Positions 11,570 to 20,606 of a DNA stretch of 64,000 nt are shown here, piece by piece; the first letter of the stretch is position 1, and each line of letters starts with the position of its first letter. The notes beneath the pieces are model-generated. The model did no database searches. It saw only the letters and a program-made list of their open reading frames with translations, and was not told the DNA's origin. The position numbers and the translations under genes are program-made. Source of the DNA: Natrinema sp. HArc-T2 (GTDB taxonomy: Archaea; Halobacteriota; Halobacteria; Halobacteriales; Natrialbaceae). The stretch spans positions 372,001-436,000 of the forward strand of contig NZ_JBGUAZ010000001.1 in NCBI RefSeq assembly GCF_041821085.1. Direction: 5' to 3'.

Positions 11570-12151
11570 ATGATGCCACCCATCGCGCTTCCACACGACG
11601 CGAAGGCCGGACCGACCAAGCCGGAGGTCCGCGCCGTCGTCGGCTCGAAGCTCGCGCTCGAGCCCGACGACCACTTCGCGGAGGTCGGCTCCTGTACCGG
11701 AGCCATCACGATCGAAGCCGCACAACGAGCCGGGCGGGTGACCGCCATCGAGCGCAAACCCGAACGCCTCGAGACGACGGAGCAGAACATCGCCGCCAAC
11801 GAGGATGTGATTCGAGCGGACATCGAACTACGCAATGCGGAAGCGCCCGAGGGACTGCCCGACGACGCCGACGCGCTCTTTCTGGGCGGGAGCCGGAACT
11901 TCGAAGCAGTGCTCGACCACGCCGTCAACACCGCAGTCGACCGCGTGGTCATGAACGTCTCGCGGCTCGAGGTCGCCGGCAGAGCAACCGAGGCTTTCCG
12001 CGAGCGCGACCTGCTCGAGGAAGTCGTCCAGTTCCAGGTGAGCCACGGCTACGAACTCGCCGGCGCGACGAGTTTCGACTCGGATAACCCGGTCTACATG
12101 CTGGTCGGGAGCGCGACCCCGGACGAGACGGACGGCGAGGTGAGCCAATGA
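11570..12151 (+). CDS. cbiT: Cobalt-precorrin-6B C15-methyltransferase (decarboxylating) CbiT
   Basis: A 193-residue SAM-dependent methyltransferase with a Rossmann fold. AKAGPTKPEVRAV at the start is the CbiT signature; motif I is EVGSCTGAIT (residues 38-47, usually DIGCGTG), and IERKPERLETTEQNI follows. In cobalamin synthesis it methylates C15 and decarboxylates ring C. No CbiE domain is fused, so CbiE must be elsewhere. It is the first gene of the coupled run; its TGA overlaps the cbiL start as CAATGA. Confidence 0.9.
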   Translation: MMPPIALPHDAKAGPTKPEVRAVVGSKLALEPDDHFAEVGSCTGAITIEAAQRAGRVTAIERKPERLETTEQNIAANEDVIRADIELRNAEAPEGLPDDADALFLGGSRNFEAVLDHAVNTAVDRVVMNVSRLEVAGRATEAFRERDLLEEVVQFQVSHGYELAGATSFDSDNPVYMLVGSATPDETDGEVSQ

Positions 12152-12888
12152 CGCTGTACGGCGTCGGGCTCGGCCCCGGCGAGGCCGACCTCGTCACGGT
12201 TCGCGGGAAAGAGGTCCTCGAGTCGACCGACGTGGTCTACTCGCCGGGCCGACTCTCGCGGACGGTCGCCCTGAACCACGTCGACGAGTCGAAGATCGGG
12301 GACCTGGACTTCCCGATGACGAAAGACGAGGAAAAGCTGCGCCGGGCGTGGAAGGAGGCCGCAGCGGAGATCGCCCCGAACGCACGCGACGGCGACGTCG
12401 CGTTCGTGACGCTCGGCGATCCGAACGTCTACTCGACCTTCGGTCACCTGCGCCGGACGATCGATGCGTTCCATCCCGATGTGGACCTCGAGATCGTCCC
12501 CGGCGTCAGTGCCGTCACCGCGTTCGCGACCGCGATGGGCGTCGAGATCGAAGCCGGCGCGGGCCTCTCGCTGCGAGAGGCCGCCGCCGGTGCGAGCCCA
12601 ACGGGACCGGACCGGATGATCTTGTTCAAGGTCACCGACGCGCCCGCGACCCACGAGGGGCTCGTCGAGGGCGGCTACGACGTGACCTACGGTCGCCGGC
12701 TGTTCATGGAACAGGGCGAGACGATCATCACCGACGATCCCGAGACGATCGACGAGCGCGACTACTACACGCTCGCTTACGCCGAGAAAGAAGACCTCGA
12801 GGTCGAACAGGCGACGGCCGCCTTCGAGACCGAGACGAAGGATGCCGGCGGTCGTTCTGCGGCAGCCGTGGAGGAAACCGATGACTGA
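12148..12888 (+). CDS. cbiL: Cobalt-factor II C20-methyltransferase CbiL
   Basis: A 246-residue tetrapyrrole methylase (class III SAM methyltransferase). It opens MTLYGVGLGPGEADLVTVRG, the glycine-rich start shared by the family, followed by VAFVTLGDPNVYSTF, PGVSAVTAFAT and a C-terminal beta sheet domain. Similarity to the CobI/CbiL branch rather than CbiF/H is judged from the ALN...FPM insert and the VTLGDPNVYSTF motif. It adds the C20 methyl group to cobalt-factor II. It overlaps cbiT by 4 bases and cbiF by 8. A 20-residue acidic tail is lineage decoration. Confidence 0.9.
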   Translation: MTLYGVGLGPGEADLVTVRGKEVLESTDVVYSPGRLSRTVALNHVDESKIGDLDFPMTKDEEKLRRAWKEAAAEIAPNARDGDVAFVTLGDPNVYSTFGHLRRTIDAFHPDVDLEIVPGVSAVTAFATAMGVEIEAGAGLSLREAAAGASPTGPDRMILFKVTDAPATHEGLVEGGYDVTYGRRLFMEQGETIITDDPETIDERDYYTLAYAEKEDLEVEQATAAFETETKDAGGRSAAAVEETDD

Positions 12889-13786
12889 CGAGACACCCAA
12901 CGACCCACAGGACGCGATCGACTCACAGAGCGACCGCCGCCGCGAGGAACTGGACGACCGGATCTTCGAACACAGCGCCGGTGACGACCAGGAGGGCGTT
13001 CCCTTCGTCGGGGCCGGCCCCGGCAACCCGCGACTGCTGACCGTCGCGGGCAAGGAACTGCTTGAGGAGGCCGACCTCGTCGTCCACGCGGGCTCGCTGG
13101 TCAACAGCGAACTCCTCGACGAGTACTGCGCCCACGCCGAACTGGTGAATTCCGTGGGGAAAGACCTCGAGGAACTGATCCCGCTCATGCGGGACGCCTA
13201 CGAGGACGGCGACAACGTCGTCCGGCTCCACAGCGGCGATCCCGCGATCTACGGGGCCGCACTCGAGCAGATGGACGCGTTAGAACACGAGGGCGTCCCG
13301 ACCTACTTCGTGCCGGGCGTCACGTCGGCCTTCGCGGCCAGCGCGACGCTGCGAACCCAACTGACGCTCAACGAGGTTTCGAATCACGTCGCGTTCACTC
13401 GCCCGCAGGGCAAGACCTTGACCGAGGAGGAAGACCACATCTCCGAGTTCGTGGAGATGGGCGACGTGACGACCTGCATCTACCTGGGGACCCACGCGGT
13501 TCGCGATACGATGGACCGGCTGCTCGAAGACGACCACGACCCAGAAACGCCGGTCGCGGTGATCTATCACGCGTCGTGGCCCGACGAGGACGTCATCATC
13601 GGCGATATCGGGACGATTGCGGACAAGGTCGAGGACGCCGGCTATCGCGCCTCGGCGCTGGTCGTCATCGGCGACGCGGTGACCGGTGCGGGCTACGAGC
13701 GCTCGTTTCTCTACGGTGACTGGGCGAATCGGGGCGCTGACTCGAGCGACGCGAGCGAATCGGAAACACAGGCAGGAGACGACTAA
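12881..13786 (+). CDS. cbiF: Cobalt-precorrin-4 C11-methyltransferase CbiF
   Basis: A 301-residue tetrapyrrole methylase that methylates C11 of cobalt-precorrin-4. After about 43 acidic residues the catalytic domain starts VPFVGAGPGNPRLLTVAG, typical of CbiF/CobM; VRLHSGDPAIYGAALEQM, PGVTSAFAASA and the late VIYHASWPDEDVI motif are all CbiF-specific. The ATG at 12881 overlaps the end of cbiL; an ATG 13 codons earlier lies in an Arg/Trp-rich out-of-character stretch. The stop is followed after 3 bases by cbiG. Confidence 0.92.
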   Translation: MTDETPNDPQDAIDSQSDRRREELDDRIFEHSAGDDQEGVPFVGAGPGNPRLLTVAGKELLEEADLVVHAGSLVNSELLDEYCAHAELVNSVGKDLEELIPLMRDAYEDGDNVVRLHSGDPAIYGAALEQMDALEHEGVPTYFVPGVTSAFAASATLRTQLTLNEVSNHVAFTRPQGKTLTEEEDHISEFVEMGDVTTCIYLGTHAVRDTMDRLLEDDHDPETPVAVIYHASWPDEDVIIGDIGTIADKVEDAGYRASALVVIGDAVTGAGYERSFLYGDWANRGADSSDASESETQAGDD

Positions 13787-13789
13787 CCT

Positions 13790-14782
13790 ATGAGTACGGA
13801 CAACGCTGACGACGCGACCGACGATGCTGGATCGGATTCGGGCGGCCACTGTTCGACGCCGGATTCGGACGGCGAAGTCGCCGAGGAGATCGCGATCATT
13901 TCCTTCGGTCGGAAGATGGACACCGCTGAGGAGATCAAAGCCGAGATCGGCGATCGCTACGAGACGATCGACATCATCGAATACCACGGCGATGTCTTCG
14001 AGGAGCACTGGGGCGAGTACGACTGCTTCATCGGCCTGATGGCGTCGGGCATCGCGATGCGCAAGACGGCCCACCTGTTAGACGACAAGTGGGAGGATCC
14101 CGCGATCTGTGTCGTCGACGAGGAACTGACGTGGGCCATCCCGATCACGGGTGGCCACCACGGCGCGAATCAGGTCGCACAGGATCTCGCGACGATGGGT
14201 GCCGTCCCGGCCATGACCACCGCAAGCGAGGCCGCAGGCAAGCAGGGCGTCGAGTCGAAGGCGAAGGCGATGGACGCCCACGTCGTCAACGGCGACTCGA
14301 CGGTCAAGACGAACCTCGCCGTCCTCGACGACAACCTCGGCCCCGTGGCTCGACTCGAGGGCCCGAAGGCCGTCCTCGTCGGTGACGACGTCACCGTCCT
14401 CAAGCGCAACAAAGACGAGGGGTGCGTCATCGGCACCGGCAGCGTCTCCGGCGCGAGCAAGGAGTCGTTCCTCGCCGCGTGGGAAGAGGCGCTCGCACAG
14501 ACCGACTACGACTTCGACGACGTCGAGTTTGTCGGGACCGCGACCCGGAAAGAAGACGAGGAGGGGCTGCTCGAAGCCGCTCAGGAACTCGATCTCGGTG
14601 TGGTCGCCTTCGACAAGGAAACGCTGCTCGCCCACGAGGGGCCGACGCCCTCGAAATCGAAGGAGCTGATCGGCTGGCCGGGCGTCTCGGAGGCCTCCGC
14701 GATCGCCGGCGGTGCCCAACAGGACCTCGTCCTCGAGAAGATCGGCTACGAAAACGAGGTCACGGTGGCGATCGGCCGATGA
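13790..14782 (+). CDS. cbiG: Cobalt-precorrin-5A hydrolase CbiG
   Basis: A 330-residue protein that opens the delta-lactone of cobalt-precorrin-5A and releases acetaldehyde. Residues about 36-240 hold the CbiG N-terminal/mid domains (IISFGRKMDTAEEI, IGLMASGIAMR, then ITGGHHGANQVAQDL, the signature region). Residues about 205-330 hold the CbiG C-terminal domain (GTGSVSGASKESF). The first 35 residues are acidic linker. The TGA overlaps the next ATG (ATGA). Domain order and length agree with archaeal CbiG. Confidence 0.9.
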   Translation: MSTDNADDATDDAGSDSGGHCSTPDSDGEVAEEIAIISFGRKMDTAEEIKAEIGDRYETIDIIEYHGDVFEEHWGEYDCFIGLMASGIAMRKTAHLLDDKWEDPAICVVDEELTWAIPITGGHHGANQVAQDLATMGAVPAMTTASEAAGKQGVESKAKAMDAHVVNGDSTVKTNLAVLDDNLGPVARLEGPKAVLVGDDVTVLKRNKDEGCVIGTGSVSGASKESFLAAWEEALAQTDYDFDDVEFVGTATRKEDEEGLLEAAQELDLGVVAFDKETLLAHEGPTPSKSKELIGWPGVSEASAIAGGAQQDLVLEKIGYENEVTVAIGR

Positions 14783-15651
14783 GTTCCGACGCTGACTCCA
14801 CAACTGGCGACGGCACCCCTGACGACCACGGCACCCTCTACGTCGTCGGCATCGGCCCCGGTCTTCCCGAGCACATGACAATGCGGGCCAAGGAGGTCAT
14901 CGAATCGGCGGACGTGGTCATCGCCTCGAGCCTCTATCAGGAGTTTCTGCGCGACGACGGGACGCTGCCACCGGAGGACGCTGTCGACGACGACGGCGTC
15001 GCGACCCGCGAGGACGGCTTCGAACAGGAGATCGTCCGCTCGACGATGGGCCGCCAGATCGAACTCGCTCGCGCGGCGTTCGACCACGTCCGGGAGGGAA
15101 AGGACGTGGCCCACGTCTCCGGCGGCGACCCGTCGGTCTACGGCAAGTCCGACCTCATCTTCAAGATGGCCGAGGAAGACGACGCGACGGACGTACCGAT
15201 CGAGATCGTCCCCGGCCTCACCGCAGCGCTCGGGGGCTCTGCGAATGTCGGCGCGCCGCTGTGTAACGACTTCTGTACGATCTCGCTGTCGGACAAGTGG
15301 CGCGGCTGGGACGAGATCGAGGAGAAACTGCGGGCGGCCGCGATCAGCGACTTCGTGATCGTCCTCTACAACTGCTGGCGCAACTACGAGGAGGCCGTCG
15401 AGATTGTCCGCGAGGAGCGGACCGACGACGCCTACGTGGCGATCGTCAACGACGCCGGCCGCGAAGACGCCGGCCGCAACGGCGAGAGCCACTTCATCAC
15501 GACGCTCGGCGAGGCTACCGACCACGACGACAAGGTCTCCGGGATGGGAACCTCGCTGATCATCGGCAACCACGAGACCGAGACCTGGCGCAACGACGAT
15601 CGAACGTACCTCGTCACCCCGCGCGGCGGGCGTGACGTCGACGATTTCTAA
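14779..15651 (+). CDS. cbiH: Cobalt-precorrin-3B C17-methyltransferase CbiH (first copy)
   Basis: A 290-residue tetrapyrrole methylase of the CbiH/CobJ branch, catalysing ring contraction with C17 methylation. Motifs are YVVGIGPGLPEHMTMRA, VAHVSGGDPSVYG, IVPGLTAALGGSANVGAPL, and LYNCWRNYEEAVEI in the usual CbiH YNP position (here YNC). The start at 14779 overlaps the cbiG stop; longer in-frame readings run through cbiG in another frame. The next gene is a second CbiH-like protein, so one of the pair may have a divergent role. Confidence 0.88.
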   Translation: MSSDADSTTGDGTPDDHGTLYVVGIGPGLPEHMTMRAKEVIESADVVIASSLYQEFLRDDGTLPPEDAVDDDGVATREDGFEQEIVRSTMGRQIELARAAFDHVREGKDVAHVSGGDPSVYGKSDLIFKMAEEDDATDVPIEIVPGLTAALGGSANVGAPLCNDFCTISLSDKWRGWDEIEEKLRAAAISDFVIVLYNCWRNYEEAVEIVREERTDDAYVAIVNDAGREDAGRNGESHFITTLGEATDHDDKVSGMGTSLIIGNHETETWRNDDRTYLVTPRGGRDVDDF

Positions 15652-15656
15652 TACCC

Positions 15657-16685
15657 ATGAGTACGGACACTGACGCAGACGCTGACGACGAATCGACTTC
15701 CAAGTGTGGCGCATCGAGTAGCAGCGAGTCGAGCACCGAGTCCTCGAGTTCGAAATGCGGTGGCTCGAGCAGCAACACCGACGACTCGAGCAGTTCGAAA
15801 TGCGGCGGCTCCTCGAGTTCCTCCTCGTCCTCGAGCAAGTGCGGCGCTTCCAGTTCCGACGACGAGTCGAATGAGCAGGAAGTCGGCGCGACGATCGACG
15901 ACTTCGACGCCGAGCCCGGCCAGCTGATCGCCGTCGGTCTCGGCCCCGGCCACCCGGAGGGGATGACCGAGCGCGCGAAGAACGCGCTGCTTGAGGCTGA
16001 CCACATCGTTGGCTACACGACCTACATCGAGCTGATTCCCGACGAGATCACCGAGCAGGCCGACGACATCTACGACACGCCGATGTGCGGCGAAGTCTCC
16101 CGGACCGAAGAGTCGATCGACCGCGCGCTTGCGGGCAACGACGTGGCGATCGTCGGCAGCGGCGACCCCAACGTCTACGCGCTCGCGGGCCTGGCACTCG
16201 AGATCCTCGAGTCGAAGGGCGCGACGGCCTCGATGGTCGACTTCGAAGTCGTGCCCGGTGTGCCGGCGGCCCAGTCCTGTGCGGCCCGCCTCGGCGCACC
16301 GCTGGTGAACGACACCGTCTCGGTCTCGCTGTCGGACCACCTTGTCCCGATGCCGGAGATCGAGTCGCGGCTGCACTCGGTGGCCAGCGAGAACTTCACG
16401 ATCACGATCTACAACCCGTGGAGCCGCAAGCGCCGCGAGAACTTCGAGAAGGCCTGTGAGATCCTGCTGACCCACCGCGACCCCGACACACCGGTCGGTA
16501 TCGTTCACGGCGCGGGCCGCGATGACGAACAGGTGATGATCACCGAACTCGGCGAACTCGAGGACCTCGGTGAAAGCGAGATTATCGACATGACGACGAC
16601 GATCGTCGTCGGCACCGAGGACACCTACGTCTGGGACGACCGGATGGTCACACCGCGTGGCTACGAGACGAAGTACGACTACTGA
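15657..16685 (+). CDS. cbiH: Second CbiH-like methyltransferase with a Ser-rich four-cysteine N-terminal tail
   Basis: A 342-residue protein. Residues 88-342 form a CbiH/CobJ methylase (IAVGLGPGHPEGMTERA, VAIVGSGDPNVYALAG, VPGVPAAQSCAARLGAPL, IYNPWSRKRRENFEKA with the canonical YNP). Residues 1-80 are unlike any other methylase: a serine/aspartate-rich tail carrying four KCG motifs at 16-18, 33-35, 48-50 and 61-63, spaced 17, 15 and 13 residues, with no other cysteine in the tail. It looks disordered. Cobalt or Fe-S binding, or tethering, are possible roles by inference. It starts five bases after the first cbiH. Confidence 0.87.
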   Translation: MSTDTDADADDESTSKCGASSSSESSTESSSSKCGGSSSNTDDSSSSKCGGSSSSSSSSSKCGASSSDDESNEQEVGATIDDFDAEPGQLIAVGLGPGHPEGMTERAKNALLEADHIVGYTTYIELIPDEITEQADDIYDTPMCGEVSRTEESIDRALAGNDVAIVGSGDPNVYALAGLALEILESKGATASMVDFEVVPGVPAAQSCAARLGAPLVNDTVSVSLSDHLVPMPEIESRLHSVASENFTITIYNPWSRKRRENFEKACEILLTHRDPDTPVGIVHGAGRDDEQVMITELGELEDLGESEIIDMTTTIVVGTEDTYVWDDRMVTPRGYETKYDY

Positions 16686-16692
16686 GCACACT

Positions 16693-16959
16693 ATGCCACG
16701 ATACGAAGTTACCATCGAGAAAGACGCCTGCGACGGCATCTTCGCCTGTCTGACCCGCGATCCGCGCTTTATCGAAGGCGCGGACGGCCTCGCGACGGTC
16801 GACCCGGACGCGGATCCGGTCTATGACTGTGAGGGCGAGGTCACGGACAACGAGGAACGCGTCGTCGCGACGTTCGACGACGACCGCATTGACGAGGCCC
16901 AGCAGGCCGCCGCGGCCTGCCCCACGGACGCGATCATCGTCGAGGAGGTGGGCGAATGA
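16693..16959 (+). CDS. Small ferredoxin, predicted single [3Fe-4S]-type cluster
   Basis: An 88-residue acidic ferredoxin starting MPRYEVTIEKDACDGIFACL. Cysteines are C13, C19, C46 and C76; C13-x5-C19 with C76-Pro (AACPTDAI) matches the ligand set of mono-cluster [3Fe-4S] ferredoxins, where the middle Cys of the C-x2-C-x2-C run is absent (Ile16 here). C46 lies in a loop and might complete a four-Cys site. It sits 7 bases after cbiH2 and overlaps the next gene by 4, so it probably feeds electrons to a step in this pathway, such as ring reduction or cobalt reduction. The partner is not known. Confidence 0.85.
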   Translation: MPRYEVTIEKDACDGIFACLTRDPRFIEGADGLATVDPDADPVYDCEGEVTDNEERVVATFDDDRIDEAQQAAAACPTDAIIVEEVGE

Positions 16960-17654
16960 GCGACGGCGACGCGCTCGAGATCGTGGTCCCCTCGGACCCA
17001 CTCGCGGGACACGCCGCGACGGCGTACTTCTGGGGCCACGTTGCTGGGAGTGGCGATGTCTCGGACGACGGTATCGAGGTCGTCACCAACGACGAGGAGT
17101 CCGCCCAAGTGCTGGCCGCGATTGCGGGCGGGAACGTCGCACACGAGACGACGACCCGCGAGTACGCCCACGACACCTCGATCACGCGCACGGAAGACGA
17201 GTACACGCTGTCGATCGGCGAGGAAGATGTTGGAGGGCTGTTGGGTCGCACCAGCGCCCTCTCGCTCCCCGTCGACGGGCGGGGCAACTACCGCTTCGGG
17301 GCCTTTACGAGCCACGAACGGGAGCTGCTCCGCGGCCTGCTCGAGGGCTGTGGCACGATCTGTTTCAAGTCCTCGAGTGGCACCGTGGGCATTTCCTTCG
17401 TCCACGACGACCGCGAACTGCTCGAGGTAACCCAGGAGCTGATCGCCGACTGTCCGATCGACGCCCCCACGGGAGATCTCTCGGCGACTTCGTCGGGTGG
17501 CTACTGGTTCGGTGTCGACGACGACGCTGTCCCCGAGTTCGGCACCTGGCTCTACGAGAACTGCGAGGAAACCGGCCTGTTCGCGCCGAGTCGCCGCCGC
17601 AAACTCGAGCGCAGTCTCGAGCAAGCGTCGGCGTACGACGGCGACGAGACGTAA
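16956..17654 (+). CDS. Cobalamin-operon protein with two degenerate LAGLIDADG-like units
   Basis: A 232-residue protein not matching any known corrin enzyme. Two halves repeat a motif-strand-helix pattern. YFWGHVAGSG (residues 24-33) is followed by IEVVTNDEESAQVLAAI, and LLRGLLEGCG (124-133) is followed by VGISFVHDDRELLEVTQEL and FGVDDDAVPEFGTWLYEN. This layout is that of LAGLIDADG domains, but the metal-binding acidic residue before the last Gly is Ser32 and Cys132, so cleavage activity is not expected. The fold assignment is my inference from pattern. It overlaps the ferredoxin by 4 bases and precedes cbiX by 15, implying a role in corrin synthesis or its control. Confidence 0.72.
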   Translation: MSDGDALEIVVPSDPLAGHAATAYFWGHVAGSGDVSDDGIEVVTNDEESAQVLAAIAGGNVAHETTTREYAHDTSITRTEDEYTLSIGEEDVGGLLGRTSALSLPVDGRGNYRFGAFTSHERELLRGLLEGCGTICFKSSSGTVGISFVHDDRELLEVTQELIADCPIDAPTGDLSATSSGGYWFGVDDDAVPEFGTWLYENCEETGLFAPSRRRKLERSLEQASAYDGDET

Positions 17655-17669
17655 CACGATCGACGATCG

Positions 17670-18902
17670 ATGAGTACACCTGACGAATCCACGCCCGCGT
17701 CGGTGGCTGGCTTCGACGACGAAGCCGTCCTCCTGATCGGCCACGGCTCCAGACGCGAGAAGTCGAACGAACAGGTCCGCGAACTGGCCGCCGGACTCGA
17801 GTCACGACTGGGAATCCCGGTCGACGCCGCGTTCCTCGAACTCGCGGAGCCGTCGATCGAAGAGGCCTTCGCGGGACTTGCACCCGTCGCCGATCGGGTG
17901 ACCGTCGTCCACTGCTCGCTCTTTGCTGCGAGCCACGTCAAAAACGACGTACCGCTGGCGATCGAGCAGGCCCGCGCCGAACACGACATCGCGATCGACA
18001 ACGGCGCCCATCTGGGAGTCCATCCCGCCATCCTGGATCTGCTGGACGATCGCGCCGCCGAAGTCGAAGCGCAACTGGGCGTCGATCGCGCTGAGGACGA
18101 TGTCGCCGTCGTCGTCTGTGGCCGCGGCTCGAGCGATCCGGACGCGAACGGCGACGTCCACAAGCTGGCCCGCTTGCTGTTCGAGGGCCGGGACTTCGAC
18201 CGCGCCGAGGCGACGTTCATCGGCGTGACCGAGCCGACGCTCGAGGACACCCTCCACGGGCTCTCGAAACACCGGCCCGACGCGGTCGTCGTGCTCCCCT
18301 ATATGCTCGGCGACGGCGTCCTGACCCAGCGGGTCCGCGACTGGACTGCGGAGTTCGACGAGGACTACCCCTACGTCGACGCGCTGGCCGGCGACCCGCT
18401 CGGGACGGACTCGCGGCTGCTCGATGTCTTCGCCGACCGTTGGCAGGAGGCGCGGTCGGGCAGCGTCGAGATGTCCTGTGATACGTGCAAGTACAAGGTC
18501 GACCTCGAGGGCTACGAGGAAGACGTCGGCGGCGCACGCGCCATGTTGCGTGCGCTGGCCCACCAGGAGGCCCACGCCGACCGCGAGGATATCGACGACG
18601 AACCTCACAGTCACGACGCACCCGAGAAACACGTCGCGGTCTGTACCAACCAGACCTGCGCGAAGATGGGCTCGCCGGCAGTCCTCGAGCGCCTCCGTCA
18701 GGAGGTACGCGACTCCGAACATTGCGACGCCCGGATCACGCGCTCGTCTTGTTTGGGACGGTGTGGCGACGGGCCGATGGTCGCGGTCTACCCCGACGGG
18801 ATCTGGTACGGCGGCGTCGAATCCGGCGACGCCGAACGGATCGTCGCCGACCACCTCGACCGGGATCGCATCGTCAGCGACCTCGTCGATCAGACGCTGT
18901 AG
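17670..18902 (+). CDS. cbiX: Sirohydrochlorin cobaltochelatase CbiX fused to a [2Fe-2S] ferredoxin-like domain
   Basis: A 410-residue protein. Residues about 18-265 are two CbiX halves: the first keeps the metal-site His (LLIGHGSRREKSNEQ, H25), while in the second the equivalent is CGRGSSDPDANGDV with Arg. A CDTCKYK motif follows (C270, C273), which may hold metal. The C-terminal 85 residues are a thioredoxin-fold [2Fe-2S] ferredoxin with C325, C330, C361 and C365 (CTNQTC and SSCLGRCGDGP). It inserts cobalt into sirohydrochlorin early in the anaerobic-type route. Fusion and operon position suggest redox coupling of cobalt insertion; that is inference. Confidence 0.9.
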   Translation: MSTPDESTPASVAGFDDEAVLLIGHGSRREKSNEQVRELAAGLESRLGIPVDAAFLELAEPSIEEAFAGLAPVADRVTVVHCSLFAASHVKNDVPLAIEQARAEHDIAIDNGAHLGVHPAILDLLDDRAAEVEAQLGVDRAEDDVAVVVCGRGSSDPDANGDVHKLARLLFEGRDFDRAEATFIGVTEPTLEDTLHGLSKHRPDAVVVLPYMLGDGVLTQRVRDWTAEFDEDYPYVDALAGDPLGTDSRLLDVFADRWQEARSGSVEMSCDTCKYKVDLEGYEEDVGGARAMLRALAHQEAHADREDIDDEPHSHDAPEKHVAVCTNQTCAKMGSPAVLERLRQEVRDSEHCDARITRSSCLGRCGDGPMVAVYPDGIWYGGVESGDAERIVADHLDRDRIVSDLVDQTL

Positions 18903-18956: not shown

Positions 18957-19328
18957 ATGAGCTGCCACGAAATCGAAGCACTACGACTCGGACTGATGAA
19001 CGTCCTCGGCGTCGGGGACGACAGCGCCCGCGAGCACGCGGAGAAAGAACTCGAAGGCCACCTCGAGGGCCCGATTCAGGGCCTCGTGGAGGCCGACAGC
19101 CTCACCGAACTGCAGCGCCACCTCGACGCGGCGCTGGTCGACTTAGAGGAGGAGGTCGCCACGATGGACAGCGCCGACCCGGAATACGATTACACGCGAG
19201 GGCGACTGCTGGCGGTTCGTGACGCCGAGCGAGCGGTCGGGCGGCTGGCCACGCAGGGCGAGAGCATCGTCGAGGGGCTCGGCGATGCCCACGACACCCT
19301 CCACGAGACGTTCCCGGTCGAGGAGTGA
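18957..19328 (+). CDS. DUF3209 family protein
   Basis: A 123-residue acidic, all-helical protein starting MSCHEIEALRLGLMNVLGVG. Composition and motif (CHEIEALRLGLMNVLG, then EHAEKELEG) match DUF3209, a haloarchaeal family that I recall accompanying cobalamin genes. The N-terminal C3-H4-E5 could bind a metal. No activity is known; a helical adaptor or metal carrier for the corrin pathway is speculation from context. It starts 54 bases after cbiX and its stop lies 3 bases before the next gene. Confidence 0.82.
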   Translation: MSCHEIEALRLGLMNVLGVGDDSAREHAEKELEGHLEGPIQGLVEADSLTELQRHLDAALVDLEEEVATMDSADPEYDYTRGRLLAVRDAERAVGRLATQGESIVEGLGDAHDTLHETFPVEE

Positions 19329-19331
19329 ACG

Positions 19332-20606
19332 ATGGCTGAACCTGTACCCGACCACGACAGCGGGATCGATTTCCGACAGGTACCGCTCGGCGAGATCGAG
19401 CCGGCGCGGAGCCGGCACATGTGGACCCGATCCGCGGTCGGCGTCGCCGAGTCGGGCGACCTTGCCGTCACCGGCGAGTGGGACGGCACCGTCACTGCCC
19501 GCGACATCGATTCACTCGAGACCCGCTGGACAGTCGACCATCCCGACCACGCGGTCGGCATCGCGTCGCTCGAGGCTGACGAGACGATCGCCGTCGCCGG
19601 CCGCGGCGACACCGGAACGATCGCGGCCTACGACGCCGAGACGGGCGAGCAGCGCTGGCGCTACGACACCGTCGACGACGTCGGCGAGGCGGTCAAAGAC
19701 ACCGTCTTCTATCTGCCCTACGTCGTCGCGCTCGAGACTGGAACGGACGCCGACGGAAACGAGCGGCTCTATGCTGCTGCGCGACGCTACGAGCGCGACG
19801 GTGAGACGCGACAGTGGCACAGCACGGTCTACGCGTTCGACACCGACGGCGAGATCTGCTGGACCTACGAGACTGACGCCTCACCGATCGCGCTCGATCT
19901 CGCCGCCGACGGCGAGCGCCTCGCGGTGGGCTACAACCGCTGTATGGGCGATCACGACACTGGGCTCGTCGTCCTCGAGGCCAATGCGGGCAAGCTCGCG
20001 TGGACCTGGGATCCTGGTACAGACGGCGACCGTCGCGTCGGCGATGTCTCCTTTGACGGGGAGACGATCGCTGTCTCGAGCCACGGCGACAAACGCGGTT
20101 ACCTGCTCGGTCCCGCCGGTGCTGAGCGCTGGCACGTCGACCTCGCTGTCGAGACCGAGATCGACGGAGAGACGCTCTATGCCTATCCGAACCACGCCTA
20201 CGCGAACGACGGGCGGGTGGCGTTCGTGACGGGCAACACCTACGCGGCAGAGAGTCGCGAAACGGAGAGCCGGCATCCGAACGAACACCGGGTCGCCGCG
20301 TTCGACGCCGACGGCGACCTCGTGTGGGACGAGACGGTTCGCGGGTTCGTCCACGGGCTGGCCACCGACGGCGATCGCCTCGTTGCGCCCTGTGCTCAGA
20401 ACTTCCGGGTTCGCGATCCCGACACCCACGCCGTTCGCTGGTTCGATCTCGAGTCCGGCGCGGACGGCTGTGAACGCATCGATGGAATCGCCACTGCGGC
20501 TGCCGTCGCCGACGATACCGTCGCTGCGATCGAGGAACCTGTGACGTATCACGACGAGGGCGAGACGCGTGGCGCGTACGCGCTTCGTGTCGGCTCGCTC
20601 GAGTAG
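19332..20606 (+). CDS. PQQ/BamB-like beta-propeller protein
   Basis: A 424-residue protein built of repeated blades. GTVTARDIDSLETRWTVD, GTIAAYDAETGEQRWRYD, STVYAFDTDGEICWTYE, and later HRVAAFDADGDLVWDETV show the A-x-D-xx-(T/D)G-xx-RW signature of quinoprotein/BamB-type propellers. There is no signal peptide, so it is probably cytoplasmic. It is the last gene of the cobalamin run, 3 bases after DUF3209. I recall a similar position in other haloarchaeal cobalamin clusters. Propellers of this kind are often scaffolds; a cofactor-binding role is not shown. Confidence 0.8.
   Translation: MAEPVPDHDSGIDFRQVPLGEIEPARSRHMWTRSAVGVAESGDLAVTGEWDGTVTARDIDSLETRWTVDHPDHAVGIASLEADETIAVAGRGDTGTIAAYDAETGEQRWRYDTVDDVGEAVKDTVFYLPYVVALETGTDADGNERLYAAARRYERDGETRQWHSTVYAFDTDGEICWTYETDASPIALDLAADGERLAVGYNRCMGDHDTGLVVLEANAGKLAWTWDPGTDGDRRVGDVSFDGETIAVSSHGDKRGYLLGPAGAERWHVDLAVETEIDGETLYAYPNHAYANDGRVAFVTGNTYAAESRETESRHPNEHRVAAFDADGDLVWDETVRGFVHGLATDGDRLVAPCAQNFRVRDPDTHAVRWFDLESGADGCERIDGIATAAAVADDTVAAIEEPVTYHDEGETRGAYALRVGSLE

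Follow-up and report, generated by a model that had tools for sequence, protein, structure and literature searches.

The domesticated members of the LAGLIDADG superfamily comprise regulators, maturases and nucleases of gene conversion, and to our knowledge all of them act on nucleic acid. The protein investigated in this study, P0001, is encoded in a cobalamin operon of the haloarchaeon Natrinema sp. HArc-T2, on the forward strand at positions 16956–17654 of the window, by which we denote the whole stretch of 64,000 nucleotides that was analysed. Among described systems, the LAGLIDADG domain of WhiA (DUF199) resembles P0001 in its fold, its degenerate catalytic residues and its standing as a fixed housekeeping gene. 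However, the WhiA class combines this domain with a C-terminal HTH, whereas the 232 residues of P0001 are all contained in two LAGLIDADG halves, its gene resides in an archaeal cobalamin operon and the protein has gained an invariant set of Cys and His residues. The two-domain fold is also found in the endonucleases of haloarchaeal inteins and in I-DmoI and I-Tsp061I, with profile homology in case of the intein domains. Unlike these enzymes, P0001 is located outside of any intein or intron, contains a Cys in place of the metal-coordinating acid of site 2 and is inherited together with its operon.

With respect to a possible role in cobalt handling, P0001 may be compared to the C-terminal region of CbiX-L from Bacillus megaterium, a His-rich and Fe-S-bearing tail that is described as dispensable for catalysis and that was proposed to store and deliver the metal at the same chelatase reaction (PMC7689651, in excerpt), although P0001 is a separate folded protein equipped with Cys and His residues and not a His-rich tail. 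The resemblance to CobW (COG0523) is confined to the proposed role, the thiol-based supply of Co(II) to a cobaltochelatase (PMC7689651, in excerpt), whereas CobW has an unrelated fold, is a GTPase and serves the late-cobalt chelatase CobNST. In Haloferax volcanii, the neighbouring cluster genes HVO_B0055 and HVO_B0056 are listed as 'function unassigned' and are not linked there to a particular fold or mechanism (PMC8305020, in excerpt), and the gene order indicates that the P0001 family most likely corresponds to HVO_B0055. The term LAGLIDADG does not appear in the main text of that source, and in the literature searched we found no work linking LAGLIDADG proteins with cobalamin biosynthesis or with haloarchaeal cobalamin.

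Fold and ancestry of P0001

The open reading frame of P0001 encodes 232 amino acids, and its ATG start overlaps with the stop codon of the preceding ferredoxin gene as ATGA. The first-pass annotation had recognized two LAGLIDADG-like halves in this protein, each with a strand-helix pattern following its motif, and both features are found as described. The first motif, FWGHVAGSG, covers residues 25–33 (17028–17054, forward strand) and the second, LRGLLEGCG, covers residues 125–133 (17328–17354, forward strand) and contains the invariant Glu130. In a model predicted by AlphaFold2 from an alignment of 48 rows (pLDDT 87.4, pTM 0.86), each motif helix is succeeded by a strand-strand-helix arrangement as part of two alpha-beta-beta-alpha-beta-beta halves, with the weak stretch of the prediction confined to a linker near residues 90–110. 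The first half comprises helices at residues 20–32 and 47–57 and strands at 33–36, 39–44, 60–69 and 77–88, and the second half helices at 114–132, 153–164 and 189–199 and strands at 133–138, 143–150 and 183–187.

The comparison of the predicted structure to known LAGLIDADG folds, which the same annotation had suggested as a check of its assignment, returned exclusively members of this superfamily. All 32 matches to the PDB at E≤1e-3 obtained with Foldseek are LAGLIDADG proteins, including WhiA, intein endonucleases, I-Tsp061I, I-DmoI and a maturase, with 3hyi as the leading entry. A second look with VIA-align, which was restricted to the Foldseek matches and where Z differences below 1 are considered as ties, placed WhiA (8dy9_I, Z 15.2, rmsd 3.3, 189 aligned residues; 8dy7_I, Z 15.0) next to I-Tsp061I (Z 14.6, rmsd 3.9, 186 aligned residues) and entries of I-DmoI (13–14), with no other fold among the 50 matches listed. 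The membership of P0001 in the LAGLIDADG fold superfamily is thus confirmed at the level of the predicted model.

A relationship is also detectable from the sequence profile. The window protein matches the Pfam family LAGLIDADG_3 (PF14528) with an E-value of 0.022 and 15.4 bits, which is below the gathering cut-off of 22.5. Out of 48 members of the P0001 family, 29 reach an E-value of 1 or lower against the same Pfam family, with 2.2e-4 as the best value. In an hhalign comparison of the P0001 family profile with the LAGLIDADG regions of 22 haloarchaeal inteins, which remained from an HMM-based collection after 9 of 31 domain hits were removed as too short or duplicate, the two profiles align motif on motif over 183 columns with a probability of 94.4% in local and 95.3% in global mode, and of 92.5–92.7% with the direction swapped. 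In 18 control comparisons with other families of the operon, the probability did not exceed 3.5%. Searches of PDB sequences by phmmer and with the profile did not return a match, and neither did NCBIfam. The profiles show that P0001 is homologous to the endonucleases of haloarchaeal inteins.

The former catalytic site

In active homing endonucleases, both motifs end on an acidic metal ligand, which is reflected in the 22 intein domains, where the respective positions are occupied by Glu in 15 and Asp in 7 cases at site 1 and by Asp in 13 and Glu in 9 cases at site 2. In P0001, these positions are held by Ser32 (17049–17051) and Cys132 (17349–17351), as had been noted for the window protein at the outset. 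The annotation had named acidic residues conserved at these sites in close homologues as evidence that would refute it, and by this measure the loss of the metal-binding Asp holds throughout the family for only one of the two sites. Among the 133 distinct family members evaluated, a set from which the two short sequences L079 and L147 were excluded, residue 132 is Cys in 131, with one Ser, one Thr and not a single acid, thus also demonstrating the conservation of Cys132 across haloarchaeal cobalamin clusters that was to be inspected. In contrast, residue 32 is Ser in 68, Asp in 49, Asn in 9, Gly in 5 and Ala in 2 members, and in a quickly computed tree that comprises 89 of the 133 members, its assignment as acid, Ser or other requires 11 changes. 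Since Asp is retained in 49 of the 133 members, Ser32 is a trait of certain lineages and not a general loss. Judged from these alignments, the universal change in the family is the replacement of Asp by Cys at site 2, and we infer P0001 to be a dead nuclease.

The loss of the acid is accompanied by the conservation of other residues. Cys136, which is located on the strand following the second motif (17361–17363), and His72, which in the model resides in the turn between strands 60–69 and 77–88 (17169–17171), are invariant in all 133 members, as are Glu130, Arg213 and Lys216, and the position of Cys136 is never occupied by Cys in the 22 intein domains. In I-CreI, the residue found four positions downstream of the catalytic Asp points into the cleft for DNA beside the metal site, and by analogy Cys132 and Cys136 thus probably line the old active site of P0001. 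We infer from this pattern that the catalytic site was converted into a thiol/His site composed of Cys132, Cys136 and His72.

The cobalamin operon and its inheritance

The coupling of P0001 to corrin genes, as claimed in the initial annotation, is real and manifested in its operon neighbours, their conserved order and the overlap of start and stop codons. On the forward strand of the window, P0001 is preceded by cbiG, encoding cobalt-precorrin-5A hydrolase (13790–14782; NF004465), a cbiH1-like methyltransferase gene (14422–15651 as listed, with its true start probably near 14.76 kb), cbiH2, encoding precorrin-3B C17-methyltransferase (15657–16685; TIGR01466 above cut-off), and a gene for a single-cluster ferredoxin of the Fer4_15 type (open reading frame at 16657–16959, with a likely ATG start at 16693). 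It is followed by the cobaltochelatase CbiX (17670–18902), which contains two CbiX stretches, an MSCDTC motif of the MXCXXC type and a C-terminal 2Fe-2S thioredoxin-like domain, by a DUF3209 protein (18957–19328), which tracks the 2Fe-2S type of CbiX, and by a PQQ-like beta-propeller protein (19332–20606), which marks the end of the conserved block and whose order is the same in Halococcus. The succession of ferredoxin, P0001 and CbiX is found in 158 of 160 loci, with some genomes counted more than once, and the start of P0001 overlaps with the stop of the ferredoxin in 138 of these 158 loci, in 119 of them by 4 nt. In the annotations of the plasmid records inspected, homologues are labelled 'cobalamin biosynthesis protein' or 'hypothetical protein'.

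For the DUF3209 family, our literature search did not find a study. Its member in the window begins with MSCHE, and the family goes along with the 2Fe-2S type of CbiX in haloarchaea and Leptospira. All 16 genomes with P0001 that were tested also contain DUF3209, whereas it is absent from 15 of 15 without CbiG. In addition, DUF3209 adjoins CbiX in Leptospira and follows it in Thermus, where CbiD is present and the region does not include P0001 in either case.

Within the class, P0001 was detected in 145 and CbiG_N in 150 of 292 genomes, and a comparison of the two lists by eye places P0001 in 145 of the 150 genomes with CbiG and in none of the 142 without it. Together with the fold and the profile homology, this co-occurrence supports the initial proposal that a homing-endonuclease fold was recruited to a cobalamin operon. 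A dN/dS of 0.075–0.182 in nine pairs indicates that the gene is under purifying selection, and in 60 sampled loci its distances track those of CbiX, CbiG and CbiH2 with rho of 0.64–0.70, compared to 0.57 between CbiG and CbiX. Whereas genes of homing endonucleases are mobile and sporadic or lodged in introns and inteins, P0001 is free-standing and found in fixed order, and no relatives were detected in phage records and viral contigs. When 246 genomes of the phylum were searched with the profile, 26 showed a match at E≤1, of which those with E above 0.1 (a second match in G021 and those in G027, G294, G321, G406 and G424) look like noise, and no relatives were found outside the class in the rest of this sample. 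P0001 is thus vertically maintained in the early-cobalt cobalamin operon. Two copies of its gene (L073 and L074) are found on a single plasmid of Haloarcula rara (NZ_CP119786), and in genome G021 a divergent homologue, which retains His72, Cys132 and Cys136, lies between two genes for cation-efflux transporters in a tightly spaced array that also includes a rhodanese gene (L117, 5845–9454), while CbiX and DUF3209 of this genome are located on another contig.

The five genomes that contain CbiG but no P0001 fall into two categories. In G001, G007, G129 and G269 (L111–L114), the operon has the composition cbiL-F-G-H1-H2-X, with neither ferredoxin nor P0001, CbiX does not contain a 2Fe-2S domain and no DUF3209 was found above cut-off. 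These operons branch deep on the CbiG tree and apart from all P0001-bearing ones. In contrast, G052 (L110) belongs to the main type and keeps the ferredoxin, the 2Fe-2S CbiX and DUF3209, but contains two cbiX genes in tandem (11703–12644 and 12656–13888), of which the first encodes a protein with a His-rich tail and sits exactly in the slot of P0001, whereas the second carries the 2Fe-2S domain. All five genomes encode a CbiX that combines an MSC-x-x-C motif with a tail rich in His. In each case, more than 10 His fall within a window of 40 residues, and for three of the tails 12–30 His were counted downstream of residue 240. In contrast, 130 of 132 distinct complete CbiX sequences encoded beside P0001 display the Cys pattern of the 2Fe-2S type and are devoid of a His tail, a count that omits 26 repeats, L013, where CbiX is cut by the end of the contig, and L117, which has no CbiX in the locus, and that retains L050, whose broken frame makes it ambiguous. 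A search of 40 genomes for CbiX returned only weak matches and no second close CbiX in genomes with P0001. A strict mutual exclusion of P0001 and the tail is nevertheless broken by L067 (6735–7800), the only locus seen to contain both and which does not include DUF3209. As the CbiG tree requires only two changes in the state of P0001, the inverse relationship between P0001 and the tail is based on about two events in evolution, with one exception.

Candidate roles at the cobaltochelatase step

The former metal site rebuilt from Cys and His residues, the coupling to CbiX and the His-rich CbiX tail that takes the place of P0001 in genomes without it fit a domesticated LAGLIDADG protein that handles Co(II) for CbiX, a role that we propose tentatively and with somewhat less than even confidence. 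According to this proposal, P0001 would work in a stoichiometric partnership with the ferredoxin and the cobaltochelatase, whose genes flank its own. At the former site for divalent metals between its two domains, P0001 would bind Co(II) or another soft metal, with Cys132, Cys136 and His72 as putative ligands following the exchange of Asp by Cys and the addition of a second Cys and a His. From there, P0001 may hand the ion to CbiX and thereby fulfil the task that in other operons falls to the His-rich tail of CbiX as a metal store. The proposal is favoured by the invariance of Cys136, His72 and Glu130 and the near-invariance of Cys132 in 133 sequences and, as a single case, by the location of the G021 homologue beside cation-efflux genes, whereas it is weakened by the fact that CbiX enzymes elsewhere insert cobalt without a comparable partner. 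The stronger statement, that a LAGLIDADG endonuclease was converted into a cobalt metallochaperone for the B12 chelatase with a function that does not involve nucleic acid, is a shade more doubtful.

Alternatively, P0001 and the ferredoxin might jointly keep cobalt intermediates in a reduced state or carry out one of the missing reactions, either the reduction of cobalt-precorrin-6A assigned to CbiJ or the C1 methylation assigned to CbiD, perhaps in adaptation to oxygen, which we regard as unlikely although several observations speak for it. Haloferax shows two consecutive gaps in the pathway (EC 2.1.1.195 and 1.3.1.106), for which four unassigned cluster genes were named as candidates (PMC8305020, in excerpt), Halonotius genomes were described to be devoid of CbiD and CbiJ (PMC6719526, in excerpt), and within the class we found CbiD in none of the 292 genomes and CbiJ above cut-off in none, with a single weak match. 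The ferredoxin is, moreover, translationally coupled to P0001. However, a protein replacing CbiD or CbiJ should be present wherever both are missing from a complete pathway, whereas the five genomes described above keep the operon without P0001, CbiD and CbiJ, with the completeness of their pathway judged from the operon genes seen, and P0001 is thus not generally needed for these steps. Concerning oxygen, a haem-copper oxidase is missing from four of the 292 genomes (G001, G007, G093 and G129), and P0001 is absent from all three CbiG genomes without the oxidase (G001, G007 and G129) but only from 2 of 147 with it. The corresponding Fisher value of 1.8e-5 is confounded by the shared ancestry of the operon type and does not constitute independent evidence, since the four operons that lack the module branch deep and apart on the CbiG tree. 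The relationship is further weakened by G269, which has an oxidase but neither P0001, ferredoxin nor a 2Fe-2S CbiX. A redox role is also disfavoured by the sequence of P0001, where no cofactor-binding motif is seen beyond the Cys/His set.

A role as scaffold, where the old DNA saddle would hold sirohydrochlorin or a cobalt corrinoid and channel it between CbiX and CbiH without binding a metal of its own, appears quite unlikely. Its appeal lies in the position of the gene between cbiH2-fdx and cbiX, in the large concave fold and in thiol and imidazole groups that could bind the cobalt of a corrinoid, but the structure matches do not contain a tetrapyrrole-binding homologue of this fold.

More improbable is a regulator resembling WhiA, where a nuclease-dead P0001 would bind DNA or RNA polymerase and control the cobalamin operon, perhaps by sensing cobalt or the redox state via its Cys and His residues. 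WhiA, whose LAGLIDADG domain is degenerate (PMC3781837, in excerpt), tops the VIA-align comparison and 3hyi leads the Foldseek matches, but homing endonucleases score close to it and the structural ranking is thus not specific. WhiA binds its DNA site-specifically via the separate HTH domain (PMC3781837, in excerpt), whereas P0001 consists of the two LAGLIDADG halves only and shows no HTH match, its gene is embedded and translationally coupled within the biosynthetic block and not placed at its edge, and the protein is more acidic than the LAGLIDADG domains of haloarchaeal inteins (−0.107 compared to −0.051 charges per residue). Finally, the presence in the operon, by mere chance, of a homing-endonuclease gene that is still mobile or in decay, as could be imagined from the LAGLIDADG ancestry and the Asp32 retained in 49 members, is very improbable in light of the constant location and gene order within the class, the low dN/dS, the correlated distances, the complete loss of the site-2 acid and the absence of copies from the phage records and viral contigs searched.

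Collectively, four genes of the haloarchaeal cobalamin cluster had been without an assigned function, and for one of them our work provides a role that can be tested, setting P0001 apart from the CbiD/CbiJ gap for which these genes had been suggested. If the proposed Co(II)-handling partnership with CbiX is correct, a LAGLIDADG protein that resides in a metabolic operon and that is linked to the insertion of a metal would broaden the range of roles open to this fold.
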